From Intestinibaculum porci (GTDB lineage Bacteria > Bacillota_I > Bacilli_A > Erysipelotrichales > Coprobacillaceae): DNA of 64,000 bases. Below, in pieces: positions 24,921-40,870 of the stretch. The position numbers were made by a program, and so were the translations under genes. Under the pieces are notes generated by a model, which was given only the letters and a program-made list of their open reading frames with translations, did no database searches and was not told the DNA's origin. The stretch covers positions 2,480,001 to 2,544,000 of the forward strand of contig NZ_AP019309.1 of NCBI RefSeq assembly GCF_003925875.1. Direction: 5' to 3'. Numbering within the stretch: the stretch's first letter is position 1; every line of letters begins with the position of its first letter.

Positions 24921-26155
24921 CGTGTTGTTAACAAATAAGTGACTTTCACATATAAGCTCCGTATTTATCCCTTTCAAGCGATGTATTGAACATCAGGATA
25001 TATGTATATTTGCTAAAATATATAGTACCTGGAGGTATTAATATGGAAATTCAAAACATTGCTGCTAACTTATCTAATATTAAACTAGATCAATTTCAAA
25101 TTGAACAGATTCTTGATATGGTTGAGGAGTATATTGAAGCTAATGAAACTGCGTCTACACCTATCATAGAGCATTGCCCAAAATGTCCTGAAAAACATCC
25201 TAAAATGATCAAAGCAGGACACACAAAAAGTGGCAAGCAAATGTATAGATGTAAAAGCTGTAATAAACGCTTTGTAGCGGATACCGGTCAATTAACTTTC
25301 TATTCACATCAGAGCCTTTCAAAGTGGAAAATTGTTCTTAAAGATACACTCAACGGTTTAGCTTTACGCGAAACTGCATTCAAAATCGGTGTGCATTATG
25401 TAACTGTATTTAGAATGCGTCATAAGCTACTTCATTTCATTGAAATGATCCTAGCTAATGATTCTGTAGGTGATGTAGCTGAAATAGATGAGAAGTACAT
25501 CCTGGCGAGTCATAAAGGGACCAAGCTGGAAGGCGTTGATCCTCGAAAACATGGATCAATAGCACCGAAACCAGGCATAACTGATATTCTAGTATGTATT
25601 ATGACCGTAGTTTCCCGAGGCGGAAATACATTTATTCACACCTATAATACCGGTCGACCTACTGACGTGAATGGCTATGAATTTTGTCAGCATATTGATA
25701 AAGAAAGCTACTGCTTTATAGATGGTATCAATATTTATGACTGGAGTCTGAAAAAACGAAATTGCGGCGTAAAGCATCTAAAACTCGATGAGTATACAAA
25801 AACTGATCATTTGAATACTGTAAATGGACTTCATTCATTTATTGAATCAGAAATCATCTATTATAGAAATATATCTACAAAGTATATAAATAGATATAAC
25901 TCGTTATTTATGATCCAATATAATTTCAGAAAACTCAATATCAGCGAGAAAGTTACAAAGCTTTTAGGGATGCTGAGACAGCATCAGCAATATTTCTACA
26001 TTCGCCAACTCAGTAAAGAAAGTATATTTAAGTTTAGCAATAGTATATTTGATCTGTAAAAATAAAGTTAATGGAATTTATGACTCGTAGAGAGATATTA
26101 AATTGTGCGCTATCAACTAAAAATCATACCAAGTCACTAAATTGTTAACAACACG
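24921..26155 (+). mobile_element. IS1595-family insertion sequence, copy C (intact)
   Basis: This 1,235-bp element has 23-bp terminal inverted repeats and an 8-bp target duplication, ATCAAATT, at 24913-24920 and 26156-26163. It is the reference copy for the two nested copies near the left end. It is inserted 178 bp upstream of the first gene of the polysaccharide operon, in the opposite direction. It lies close to weak promoter-like sequences there (TTGATA/TATAAC on the minus strand, overlapping the duplication), so it may have altered operon expression. Confidence 0.95.
25043..26059 (+). CDS. IS1595-family transposase (copy C, intact)
   Basis: The predicted protein is identical to that of copy B: 338 residues starting at ATG 25043 behind CTGGAGG. 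Landmarks in order are two zinc-binding cysteine pairs (residues ~45-75), a helix-turn-helix, catalytic aspartates in A-E-I-D-E-K-Y and I-D-G-I-N-I-Y, then V-N-G-L-H-S. The tail Y-I-N-R-Y-N-S-L-F-M-I is the usual DDE_Tnp_ISXO2 ending (Y-L-x-x-Y-x-W). Identity between distant copies implies recent activity of this transposase in the genome. Confidence 0.93.
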   Translation: MEIQNIAANLSNIKLDQFQIEQILDMVEEYIEANETASTPIIEHCPKCPEKHPKMIKAGHTKSGKQMYRCKSCNKRFVADTGQLTFYSHQSLSKWKIVLKDTLNGLALRETAFKIGVHYVTVFRMRHKLLHFIEMILANDSVGDVAEIDEKYILASHKGTKLEGVDPRKHGSIAPKPGITDILVCIMTVVSRGGNTFIHTYNTGRPTDVNGYEFCQHIDKESYCFIDGINIYDWSLKKRNCGVKHLKLDEYTKTDHLNTVNGLHSFIESEIIYYRNISTKYINRYNSLFMIQYNFRKLNISEKVTKLLGMLRQHQQYFYIRQLSKESIFKFSNSIFDL

Positions 26156-29642: not shown

Positions 29643-29719
<77 letters not shown>

Positions 29720-29734
29720 ATTTATAAATAAAAA

Positions 29735-29810
29735 TGGTGGAGCTTATCGGGATCGAACCGGTGACCTCCTGCGTGCAAAGCAGGCGCTCTCCCAACTGAG
29801 CTAAAGCCCC
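29735..29810 (-). tRNA. tRNA-Ala(TGC), copy 2
   Basis: 76 bases, identical in sequence to copy 1. The anticodon is TGC and CCA is encoded. Fifteen bases separate it from the preceding tRNA-Ile. Confidence 0.98.
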
Positions 29811-29826
29811 AGAGAAAAATAATTAA

Positions 29827-29903
<77 letters not shown>

Positions 29904-29921
29904 ATTAATTATTCAATAAAA

Positions 29922-29997
29922 TGGTGGAGCTTATCGGGATCGAACCGGTGACCTCCTGCGTGCAAAGCAGGCGCTCTCCCAACTGAGCTAAAGCCCC
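29922..29997 (-). tRNA. tRNA-Ala(TGC), copy 3
   Basis: 76 bases, identical to the other tRNA-Ala copies, with anticodon TGC and encoded CCA. Confidence 0.98.
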
Positions 29998-30015
29998 AAA
30001 GAAAATATAAATACA

Positions 30016-30092
<77 letters not shown>

Positions 30093-30112
30093 ATGTATAC
30101 AGTCAATCAAAA

Positions 30113-30189
<77 letters not shown>

Positions 30190-32826: not shown

Positions 32827-34104
32827 TTATGGTTTAAGACAGCCAATTGGAACAATAAACACACCATCCTTTCGTTTATAAGCATAATCTCCTACACCAA
32901 TAATAATCATCAAAAATGAAGGAGCATTCATTTTTTGAGTATCAATCTTATCGCTCAATGTTTTAAGATTCTTAGCACCTTCTTCAATAAGACGTTCTCC
33001 ACCTAATTTCACCTCTGCTAGTCCATAGCTTCCATTTCTCAAGTGGATAACTGTATCACACTCCAATCCTGATTTATCACGATAATGTAGCACATCTCCA
33101 TCTAAAAGCTGAGCATATACACGCAAGTCCCTCACTACCAGCGTCTCAAAAAGTAATCCCATTGTATGCAAATCATTCAATAAATCGTTAGGTCCAATGC
33201 CTTGAGCTGCACTCGCAATAGAGGGATCGACAAAGTACCTCGTGTCAGATGATCGAATGGCTGTTTTTGATCTTAAATTAGGATTCCATGCAGGCATGTC
33301 CTCAATCACAAAAATCTTCTTTAATGCACTTATATAAGCAGCGATGGTATCTTCACTAATGGTAAAAGACTCATTATTCATAATATCATCCTTGAGCATT
33401 TTCATCGAAATTTGTGTTCCTTGGTGTCTTGCAAAAGATCGCATTAATCGCACAACTCTTGCTTCATCCTTTACAATACCATCAGCCCTACTAATATCTG
33501 ACTTCACAACAGCATCAAAATAATCTTTTGCCTGCTCTAAAGCAGCTTTTTGCATCATATCAATTGATCTAGGCCATCCTCCACGACAAATAAGAAAAGC
33601 TAATTGATTGATATCAATAGGATTAATACCACTAATCGACTTAGGATCATCAAAGAGTTCACCCAGACTTACTTCACCTGTTGATTCTAAAGATTCATAC
33701 AGGGACATTGTTCGCATAGTTAACCAAGTAAAACGACCTGTTCCTGAATGATATATTTTTTCCGATTCAACAGGAACAGACGAACCCGTAAAGATAAACT
33801 GTCCTTCTGCATTACGTTGATCAATTTCATATCTAGCTGCATCCCAAAGCTCTGGGGCAATTTGCCACTCATCAACCAATCGCGGTGGAGTGCCTTGTAA
33901 TAATAACGATGGGTTAATTTCTGCCATATCCATATTCTGTTTTCGTCTAGACGGTTCATCCATCCTCAAAACACTACCGGCAGCCTGCATTGCCGTTGTT
34001 GTTTTTCCACACCATTTAGGTCCTTCAATGACCACACCACCTTTCGCATTTAATTTATCAAGTAAAATCTGATCTACAACTCTTTTTTTATAATCAACTG
34101 CCAT
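32827..34104 (-). CDS. AAA_14/DUF4143 ATPase
   Basis: About 425 residues from ATG 34104 (a GTG three codons earlier is possible). Walker A is G-P-K-W-C-G-K-T-T, Walker B is L-V-D-E-W-Q, and a sensor follows in F-I-F-T-G-S-S. The C-terminal DUF4143 nuclease-like domain (residues ~200-420) has Y-F-V-D-P-S, G-L-L-F-E-T-L-V-V-R-D and Y-R-D-K-S-G-L-E-C-D-T-V-I, with L-A-E-V-K-L-G, the E-x-K signature of PD-(D/E)XK folds. The function of this widespread family is not established. It lies between two paralogous transferase genes with a tandem array at its promoter, as if inserted as a cassette. Confidence 0.85.
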   Translation of the reverse strand: MAVDYKKRVVDQILLDKLNAKGGVVIEGPKWCGKTTTAMQAAGSVLRMDEPSRRKQNMDMAEINPSLLLQGTPPRLVDEWQIAPELWDAARYEIDQRNAEGQFIFTGSSVPVESEKIYHSGTGRFTWLTMRTMSLYESLESTGEVSLGELFDDPKSISGINPIDINQLAFLICRGGWPRSIDMMQKAALEQAKDYFDAVVKSDISRADGIVKDEARVVRLMRSFARHQGTQISMKMLKDDIMNNESFTISEDTIAAYISALKKIFVIEDMPAWNPNLRSKTAIRSSDTRYFVDPSIASAAQGIGPNDLLNDLHTMGLLFETLVVRDLRVYAQLLDGDVLHYRDKSGLECDTVIHLRNGSYGLAEVKLGGERLIEEGAKNLKTLSDKIDTQKMNAPSFLMIIIGVGDYAYKRKDGVFIVPIGCLKP

Positions 34105-34160: not shown

Positions 34161-34169
34161 ATTATATCA
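34161..34169 (-). promoter_or_regulatory. Extended -10 promoter of the DUF4143 gene
   Basis: The minus strand has TGATATAAT (TG-n-TATAAT) about 55 bases before the start codon. No good -35 is visible, but TTGCCG from the first repeat unit lies 19 bases upstream, so the promoter abuts and may overlap the tandem array. Confidence 0.6.
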
Positions 34170-34184
34170 CCTTTTTTCAATAGT

Positions 34185-34478
34185 GATCGGCAATTTGGCA
34201 GCTTTTCAATCCGTTATTTGGCACTCTTTTGATCGGCAATTTGGCAACTTTTCAATCCGGCGTTTGGCACTCTTTTGATCGGCAATTTGGCAACTTTTCA
34301 ATCCGGCGTTTGGCACTCTTTTGATCGGCAATTTGGCAACTTTTCAATCCGGCGTTTGGCACTCTTTTGATCGGCAATTTGGCAACTTTTCAATCCGGCG
34401 TTTGGCACTCTTTTGATCGGCAATTTGGCAACTTTTCAATCCGGCATTTGGCACTTTTTTGTTCGGCAATTCAGCCAA
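34185..34478 (+). repeat. 46-bp tandem repeat array (dimer of 23-bp units)
   Basis: Six head-to-tail copies of a 46-bp unit begin GATCGGCAATTTGGC, with a partial seventh. Units 2-5 are identical; units 1 and 6 differ by a few bases. Each unit is two related 23-bp halves, CGGCAATTTGGC... and CCGGCGTTTGGC..., both ending in a TTTT tract and AT. There are no unique spacers, so it is not a CRISPR array. It fills the space between the ATPase promoter and the upstream transferase gene. Confidence 0.97.
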
Positions 34479-39030: not shown

Positions 39031-39537
39031 CTATTTTAAGCAGCTATCAATAACATTTAAAATATTGCTATGTCCACTCGATTGTTGGTCTTTTCGTAAT
39101 TTATTTTCATCTACTTTTTCTATTTCACCTTTTTGTTTAAATCTTTTTGAAATAGATACTTTATCCTTGTTACGAACACTTTTGCCTATATAAACTTCTT
39201 CAATATCATGACAAAACCAAATCAATTTATAACCATTTCTTAGACAAAAATCTTCTATTGACTTATTTAGTTTAAGCTGTTCTTGATTACATTCAAATTG
39301 ATCTGTATCAATACAATAAACAATATAGCTTGTTCCATTGGGATTATTCTTTATATATTTACGAATATCTGCTTTCGTTTTTTTATTATTAAAAGCCGTT
39401 TTAGTTCCCATAGGAACATATTCAAAATTAATACCAGAATAATCATTATAGAATTTACGAATTGTATCCTTTATATAGACAATATCTGTTCGCGCTTTTC
39501 CATTCGTTTCAACACAAAAAATGATTTGTTTACTCAT
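39031..39537 (-). CDS. RloB/Toprim-like small protein, ATPase partner
   Basis: The start is ATG 39537, eight bases into the end of the upstream ATPase gene (ATGAGTAA); longer frames back to 39651 are in the ATPase coding region. The 168-residue protein has an early glutamate in I-I-F-C-V-E-T-N-G-K, V-Y-C-I-D-T-D-Q-F (DxD), and W-F-C-H-D-I-E-E-V-Y. These lie in the order and spacing of RloB- and Toprim-type nucleases, where A-Y-S-N-P-C-F-E-x-W is usual. RloB-like proteins and ABC-type ATPases form defence pairs (OLD, PARIS, AbiL). The family match is distant, so the nuclease role is inference. Confidence 0.6.
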   Translation of the reverse strand: MSKQIIFCVETNGKARTDIVYIKDTIRKFYNDYSGINFEYVPMGTKTAFNNKKTKADIRKYIKNNPNGTSYIVYCIDTDQFECNQEQLKLNKSIEDFCLRNGYKLIWFCHDIEEVYIGKSVRNKDKVSISKRFKQKGEIEKVDENKLRKDQQSSGHSNILNVIDSCLK

Positions 39538-40870
39538 CACTTTCCCCCTCATCCGAATCAAATACTCCAAGAAAATCTTCCGCATCAATATTAAGTGGTA
39601 ATCCATCAACCATTCCAAAACGATAAAAATTTTCTGGACTTGCATTACCATGCGGAATCCAAGTCTTTATCCCATTAGTTGTTAAAAAATCAATTGAAAG
39701 TTTATTTTCTTTTAATACTTCCATTGGTTCAAGTGAATGTAAAGTCATGCAAAGTTGACCCTTACCATATCGAATAAAATAATCGATTAATTTTTTCAAA
39801 TAAATACTATTAATATTTGTATCGATTTCATCAACAAAAACAATTTTTTCATGATCAGCATCATTCAAACATTCATATAACTTTGTTAACCGTTTTATGC
39901 CCGTGCTTTCAAATTCTAGACTTATACGATAATCTGGATAAACGAAAACAAGTTCGCAATCATAATAGTTTTTATCTTCTCTTTTTTCAATTTCTATATC
40001 AATTAAATCTTTTTTAAAAATAGAGATAAAACGAGTCATGTATTTGATCTTATGTTGAAATTTATCAAAAGATTCTTTAGCAACATAATAATGATTTTTA
40101 GTAACATAATAGTCTATAAAATCATTTAAAATACCTTTTTCCTTATTCAATAAATTAACCTCATTATTCTTTATTTTTTTTATAAGAGAATAATATGAAT
40201 GCTGGTCTTCTTCATTTAAAAATATGCTAGTAGTAAGAAAAAATATCATTAAATTAATAATATGATACTGAAAGCTGTTTATTTTTTCTAAATCTCCATT
40301 TCCTCCAATAAGCAAAAGCCCTGCTTCTAAGGCAAGTGGCTGAATTTTCAAAAGATTTGTTGTTTTATCTTTGATCAATTTAGTATAGTAATCTTCAGAT
40401 TTTATTTTACTAATTTCCCCATCATGAACCGTATAAATTTCATGATAATTATTTGTCGGGGTATTCCCATTCTTATGCCAAAGAGATTCATAACTAATAA
40501 TATAGCTATCTAATGTATTTTTAGATAAAACAATCTCATATTTATACACTTCAATCTTATTAGATTTCATGCGAAATAGGATTTCTAATTCTACACACAT
40601 TTTTTTCATTTTTTTATTAATTAATTCATCAAGCAAAATTTGTGTGTTCTCTTGCATTAAATAATGTGTATTTAGAAACATATCTTGAACAATTTTAATT
40701 GCTGTAATTAATGCAGTTTTCCCTGATCCATTTTCTCCATATATTGCTTTAATTCGGTAATCTTCTGGATCAAAATTTTTACTTATTCGTTTATTATAAA
40801 ATGATAATTCAACTTCTTTTTCAATAGACTTTATACCATTTACTTTTAAATTTAATAAATATACCTTCAT
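39530..40870 (-). CDS. AAA/ABC-type ATPase of a candidate defence pair
   Basis: 446 residues. I-Y-G-E-N-G-S-G-K-T is the Walker A motif, at residues ~42-52. I-V-F-V-D-E-I-D-T is Walker B, near residue 345, and L-C-M-T-L-H-S is the H-loop. The ~290 residues between are lysine-rich and helical, as in AAA_15/OLD-like ATPases of the SMC/ABC class. The opening Y-L-L-N-L-K-V-N-G-I-K-S fits these proteins, which start with an F-K-S-type segment. It overlaps its partner gene by eight bases. GGAGGG lies before the ATG, and TATAAT is at 40908-40913. It would sense a phage or nucleic acid trigger. The role is inferred. Confidence 0.75.
   Translation of the reverse strand: MKVYLLNLKVNGIKSIEKEVELSFYNKRISKNFDPEDYRIKAIYGENGSGKTALITAIKIVQDMFLNTHYLMQENTQILLDELINKKMKKMCVELEILFRMKSNKIEVYKYEIVLSKNTLDSYIISYESLWHKNGNTPTNNYHEIYTVHDGEISKIKSEDYYTKLIKDKTTNLLKIQPLALEAGLLLIGGNGDLEKINSFQYHIINLMIFFLTTSIFLNEEDQHSYYSLIKKIKNNEVNLLNKEKGILNDFIDYYVTKNHYYVAKESFDKFQHKIKYMTRFISIFKKDLIDIEIEKREDKNYYDCELVFVYPDYRISLEFESTGIKRLTKLYECLNDADHEKIVFVDEIDTNINSIYLKKLIDYFIRYGKGQLCMTLHSLEPMEVLKENKLSIDFLTTNGIKTWIPHGNASPENFYRFGMVDGLPLNIDAEDFLGVFDSDEGESDE

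Follow-up and report, generated by a model that had tools for sequence, protein, structure and literature searches.

Results

The window (the whole 64,000-nucleotide stretch of the Intestinibaculum porci genome that was analysed) carries on its minus strand an ATPase gene preceded by a tandem array of direct repeats:

34177..34475, minus strand: 23-bp direct-repeat array of 13 units, of two types that alternate to form a 46-bp dimer; it covers the -35 region and upstream part of the ATPase promoter, and its pitch is kept in homologues.
34166-34161, minus strand: TGaTATAAT, probably an extended -10 box; the last array unit lies 10 bp upstream of it.
32827..34104, minus strand: AAA_14/DUF4143 gene, 425 aa from the ATG at 34104 (Pfam DUF4143, E=5.7e-31; AAA_14, E=5.5e-12; PADLOC PDC-S01, E=5e-60).

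The array is intergenic, lying between the stop codon of a sulfatase/LtaS-like gene (34505) and the ATG of the ATPase gene (34104), both genes being on the minus strand. Read on the gene strand, it consists of 13 abutting, in-register 23-bp units running from 34475 down to 34177 and alternating between GCCAAACGCCGGATTGAAAAGTT and GCCAAATTGCCGATCAAAAGAGT, with the outermost units degenerate. Because of this alternation, TRF run on the window returned a period of 46 (34184-34471, 6.3 copies, 97% match). Thus, the tandem array that a preliminary description had placed upstream of the DUF4143 ATPase gene is real by both TRF and the in-register reading, but the 46 bp taken there as its basic unit is a secondary dimer of a 23-bp one. 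The units in the window are nearly identical, which shows recent homogenisation. They are not a CRISPR, in which repeats are split by unique spacers; here the units abut directly. A 26-bp stretch of the unit has no second site (up to 3 mismatches allowed) in the 3.21-Mb single-contig genome. The further proposal that TTGCCG serves as the -35 element is unsupported because it lies 21 bp from the -10 box, a spacer too long for a normal -35; the best promoter pair in a scan of the locus, TTGAAA-17-TATTAT, was at about chance level.

Elsewhere in the window, an overlapping gene pair at 39031-40870, 5 kb from the array locus, encodes a 446-aa AbiLi/mad3-like ATPase and a 206-aa protein without a Pfam match, and is a probable two-gene defence module. 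A 187-bp tandem repeat of duplicated, tRNA-gene-like sequence lies at 29643-30118, and 24986-26059 encodes a 357-aa protein with a zinc-ribbon-like N terminus that resembles an insertion-sequence transposase and has no Pfam match.

The ATPase gene satisfies both AAA_14 and DUF4143 membership, and all 51 of the 51 family members tested match the PDC-S01 profile. An AlphaFold model (pLDDT 94) divides the protein into AAA+, winged-helix-like and C-terminal alpha/beta domains:

33565..34104, minus strand: AAA+ domain, residues 1-180; Walker A GPKWCGKTT, Walker B LVDEWQ; G28, G33, K34, D78 and E79 invariant.
33205..33468, minus strand: winged-helix-like segment, residues 213-300, an assignment that rests on the succession of predicted secondary-structure elements (helices and strands) and on Orc/NLR-type matches.
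32830..33204, minus strand: PD-(D/E)XK nuclease domain, residues 301-425; E348, D350, E364 and K366 invariant in 51 sequences.

VIA-align matched the AAA+ part to PAB2304 (Z 14.5) and SSO1545 (Z 13.6), then to plant NLRs and CED-4, and its Foldseek matches include Orc/Cdc6 bound to origin DNA. The C-terminal domain has the PD-(D/E)XK core, with elements in the order H-E-E-E-H-E and invariant D350, E364 and K366; it aligned with McrC (Z 9.5, rmsd 3.5 A over 128 residues) and also matched Card1 and Can2. Foldseek gave no match for this domain at E<=0.001, and the fold assignment therefore rests on VIA-align, motif and topology. The E-x-K nuclease motif pointed out in the preliminary description is present as E364-V-K366, with E364 and K366 invariant across the 51 sequences.

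We found the same pitch upstream of homologous genes. Our set comprised 114 homologues with 35-65% identity to the query and tblastn scores of 160-884 bits, whereas the scores of other DUF4143 genes stayed below 85 bits. They came from at least six phyla, including Bacillota and related wall-less lineages, Bacteroidota, Verrucomicrobiota/Kiritimatiellae, Actinomycetota and Gemmatimonadota genomes; sampling is skewed to public MAGs, and archaea lie outside it. In the 330 bp upstream, the strongest self-period was 23 in 94 loci, 46 in 18 and 20 in 2, that is, 23 or 46 in 112 of the 114. Mean identity at lag 23 was 0.78; shuffles gave 0.44, and lags other than 23 and 46 gave 0.42-0.47. No 23-bp periodicity appeared in the 335 bp downstream of the same 114 genes (identity about 0.44), and among 300 unrelated ORFs of the same loci, 23-bp matches came solely from second-copy arrays or from sites near a subfamily gene. 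Most arrays have 3.0 to about 4 units (3.0 being a floor imposed by the detection window); that of the window, with 13, and that of L086, with 12, are long outliers. Conservation within units is uneven and clustered beyond all shuffles in a phase-free test, resembling, as far as can be judged in silico, a bound site plus a free linker. A two-block shape of the unit is visible after phase alignment, of which the phase-free test confirms the clustering only.

The pitch reaches beyond this set. Relatives with 24-29% identity (Prosthecochloris, Lentilactobacillus and Spartinivicinus) have 23 as their top period; Actinomyces gave a weak signal and Agrobacterium a period of 22. A viral scan with the single query sequence found no matches, whereas one with an alignment found 8 loci, the top period being 23 or 46 in all 7 of the 7 checked. 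In the genomes of the homologue set, a clade of PDC-S01/DUF4143 genes encoding 430-477 aa carries arrays of 32-34 bp, and such arrays also occur on plasmids with named hosts, those of Agathobacter rectalis, Segatella copri, Fusobacterium animalis and Acinetobacter baumannii. The upstream regions of other DUF4143 genes, named beforehand as the check on the idea, thus bear it out: arrays are present, at 23 bp in one subfamily and at 32-34 bp in another, and they sit at these genes. The step from 23 to 33 bp is about one helical turn, which suggests protein sites on double-stranded DNA, although this is an inference. Short DUF4143 clades (395-425 aa) lack arrays; in their place, at about -44 to -98, stand near-perfect palindromes. 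A palindrome score of at least 12 was reached by 12 of 34 genes in these clades versus 1 of 116 in the 23-bp family and 6 of 114 other ORFs. The 39-42-bp periods of the short clades probably reflect palindromes, not arrays. Palindromes with 13- to 16-bp arms lie upstream of the DUF4143 genes of L054, L185, L201 and L252 (e.g., ATACATATTTGGAGTTGAACTCCAAATATGTAT).

A TATAAT-like box stands between array and start codon in most non-Bacteroidota homologues, matching at 6/6 positions in 35 of 101 such loci (35%, versus 14% of shuffles). The array lies upstream of the -10 box in Bacillota; in Prevotella-type loci it follows the -7 box and extends as far as the start codon. Both placements suit an operator. 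With tandem direct repeats, a fixed near-helical pitch and a position at the gene's own promoter, the layout is of the iteron type.

The sequences of the units, as opposed to their pitch, are private to each gene. Unit similarity tracks protein identity (Mantel r 0.49, against a maximum of 0.10 in 999 permutations), and sharing a genome does not make the arrays of paralogues more similar than expected from protein identity. In the Bacteroidales MAG G420, at least 9 subfamily paralogues have arrays, each with a distinct unit; a further paralogue, L286, has no clear 23-bp array. One of these distinct units, that of L294, occurs, genome-wide, solely in its own array, and at L018 two subfamily genes only 2.5 kb apart have unlike 23-bp units, alongside a DUF4143 gene with a 33-bp array. 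The array used as a DNA query found no matches among plasmids and phages, because units diverge while the pitch stays; weak matches to it in family genomes were rejected as chance-level. Family expansion is extreme in some MAGs, with 37, 47 and 28 DUF4143 matches in G420, G426 and G430 (hosts of L024, L022 and L020, respectively).

Array and gene also move together. In about 20 of about 27 homologue pairs from different genomes (at least 82% protein identity), DNA similarity is confined to the array plus the gene, beginning at the array (-76 to -150) and ending at the stop codon, with the closest pairs extending further. The transferred unit is therefore the array and gene of about 1.4 kb, and the earlier idea of an inserted cassette gains support from this usual limit of cross-genome similarity. 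No conserved neighbour or partner gene was common to the homologue loci. A sister species (G019) has two LtaS-like copies with no ATPase gene between them, although the orthology is uncertain. At L015:5560-5730, a second 23-bp array is followed by the apparent last codons of a subfamily gene (..YRRKDGVY) and reads as though left behind by a decayed gene copy. In genome G000, the sole other DUF4143 match (C1:418311-418694; L002, L224) is a gene broken by an in-frame stop.

Discussion

Through this analysis we identified promoter arrays of fixed position and pitch, private in sequence and linked in cis to genes whose products share an AAA+/winged-helix/nuclease architecture. The preliminary description had taken the repeats for a series of operators bound by a partner protein, perhaps the ATPase; this is now the best-supported reading, with the binding itself inferred. 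We consider it probable that each protein is an autorepressor that binds cooperatively to the units of its own array, although there are no binding or expression data. Under such a scheme, gene and array would form one stand-alone, horizontally moving module, in which the encoded AAA+/winged-helix/PD-(D/E)XK protein would recognise the 23-bp units as iteron-like sites. Several copies of the protein might then line up over the -35 and upstream region, each on a unit of its own and at a fixed spacing of about two helical turns. Repression of its own promoter, likewise inferred, would hold down the level of a nuclease that could do harm, up to the point at which infection or some other signal altered its ATP- or DNA-bound state; a role in defence is also an inference. 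Since each paralogue has its own unit sequence, the circuits of paralogues in one cell would be insulated from each other. Several points weigh against a self-operator: linked inheritance alone would also yield the correlation between units and protein; 13 units, as in the window, exceed the need of repression; the residues most associated with unit type fall in the nuclease domain and not in the recognition helix; and the two-block shape of the unit lacks confirmation in the phase-free test.

The excess of units can be accommodated if the array is instead a holding or licensing site, whose private binding keeps the nuclease inactive until loss, invasion or competing DNA releases it, as a DNA-based antitoxin or self marker, with transcriptional control secondary. 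We regard this as unlikely. Arrays of 12-13 units, array and gene travelling as one unit, sequences private to each paralogue and invariant nuclease catalytic residues all fit it. So does the location in the nuclease domain of the residues most associated with unit type (344, 355 and 411); the recognition helix is not associated. Phylogeny was not fully controlled, and these associations are therefore only a lead; if real, they would mean that the repeat is read by the nuclease domain and not by the winged helix, which would strengthen the holding-site reading. Against it, arrays are always at the promoter, consistent with regulation, the majority have only about 3-4 units, and the single palindrome of the short clades resembles a classical operator. 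We attach little weight to the more specific notion of a DNA antitoxin or self tag, with the AAA+ nuclease parked inactive on its private array and freed by loss or competition; were it true, many mutually orthogonal toxin-DNA pairs could share one genome.

Other readings remove the encoded protein from the array altogether. It is improbable that a separate host DNA-binding protein (a repressor or nucleoid protein) occupies the repeats, even though some relatives adjoin small HTH genes (Collinsella plasmids) and RptR is a known separate repressor on direct repeats at a defence promoter (PMC12255303). The loci have no neighbour gene in common, the units track the phylogeny of the ATPase itself and differ among paralogues within one cell, and cross-species transfer involves array and gene only. 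Tandem repeats upstream of a nuclease gene are also the layout of ToxIN-type systems, and on that resemblance the array might be a transcribed RNA element (a type III toxin-antitoxin RNA antitoxin or a guide precursor). This we think highly improbable, given the -10 boxes between array and gene and a pitch step, from 23 to 33, of about one helical turn, which suggests double-stranded DNA. In RNA folding, every one of 200 shuffles came out more stable than the window array (z +4.3), and arrays overall have a mean z of -0.24; the one Rfam match fell below the gathering score and is put down to chance, and a scan of the locus found no terminator-like site. With its -10 box after the array, this z and no Rfam family, the locus was rejected as a ToxIN-like type III toxin-antitoxin RNA. 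The near-identity of the window units and their recent homogenisation are also what a neutral minisatellite or slippage product would offer, but we give next to no credence to a functionless array: constancy of pitch and place across phyla contradicts it, and the absence of arrays downstream and at other genes and the uneven, clustered conservation within units also count against it.

Several known systems come close to these loci. Rep-iteron plasmid initiators, DnaA boxes and archaeal Orc1/Cdc6 origin boxes are tandem sites of about two helical turns beside the gene of their binder. The present loci share tandem near-two-turn sites beside a gene, and their AAA+ part matches Orc/Cdc6 folds; they differ in showing no sign of an origin or replicon, in encoding a PD-(D/E)XK nuclease and in being chromosomal multicopy cassettes with private sites. 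The nearest precedent is RptR, where direct repeats at a defence promoter likewise serve as autoregulatory operators (PMC12255303). However, RptR is a separate 9-kDa repressor acting on 9-bp repeats with a palindromic core (PMC12255303), while the present repeats are of 23 or 33 bp, lack a separate regulator and are probably bound by the effector ATPase-nuclease itself. IniR, a mycobacterial promoter-binding ATPase, similarly has an SSO1545-like AAA+ domain in a promoter-acting protein but is 818 aa long with MalT-like and LuxR-type DNA-binding domains and no nuclease, and direct repeats go unmentioned in the accessible part of its report (PMC5760070).

The gene itself is a member of PDC-S01, a single-gene phage defence candidate combining an AAA ATPase with PD-(D/E)XK; what is new is the promoter array and its pitch classes. 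PDC-S01 has been ranked fourth by frequency among the defences of prokaryotes, with experimental validation pending for most such candidates, itself included (PMC12988326), and first among single loci in the rumen (PMC13356809). The available portions of these two reports do not mention a promoter array for PDC-S01. Nor did we find a description of such arrays in the open-access literature on the family, although subscription papers and preprints were mostly outside that search, and absence is not proof.

PDC-S01 ranks with the most abundant predicted defence genes of prokaryotes, but its function is untested (PMC12988326, PMC13356809). The conserved, gene-private array with subfamily-specific pitch is a first concrete handle on what PDC-S01 binds, and with every protein comes a DNA substrate ready for use in gel-shift, structural and nuclease assays. 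The arrays are also a clean genomic marker of intact cassettes and provide a large natural collection of protein-operator pairs that may be orthogonal.
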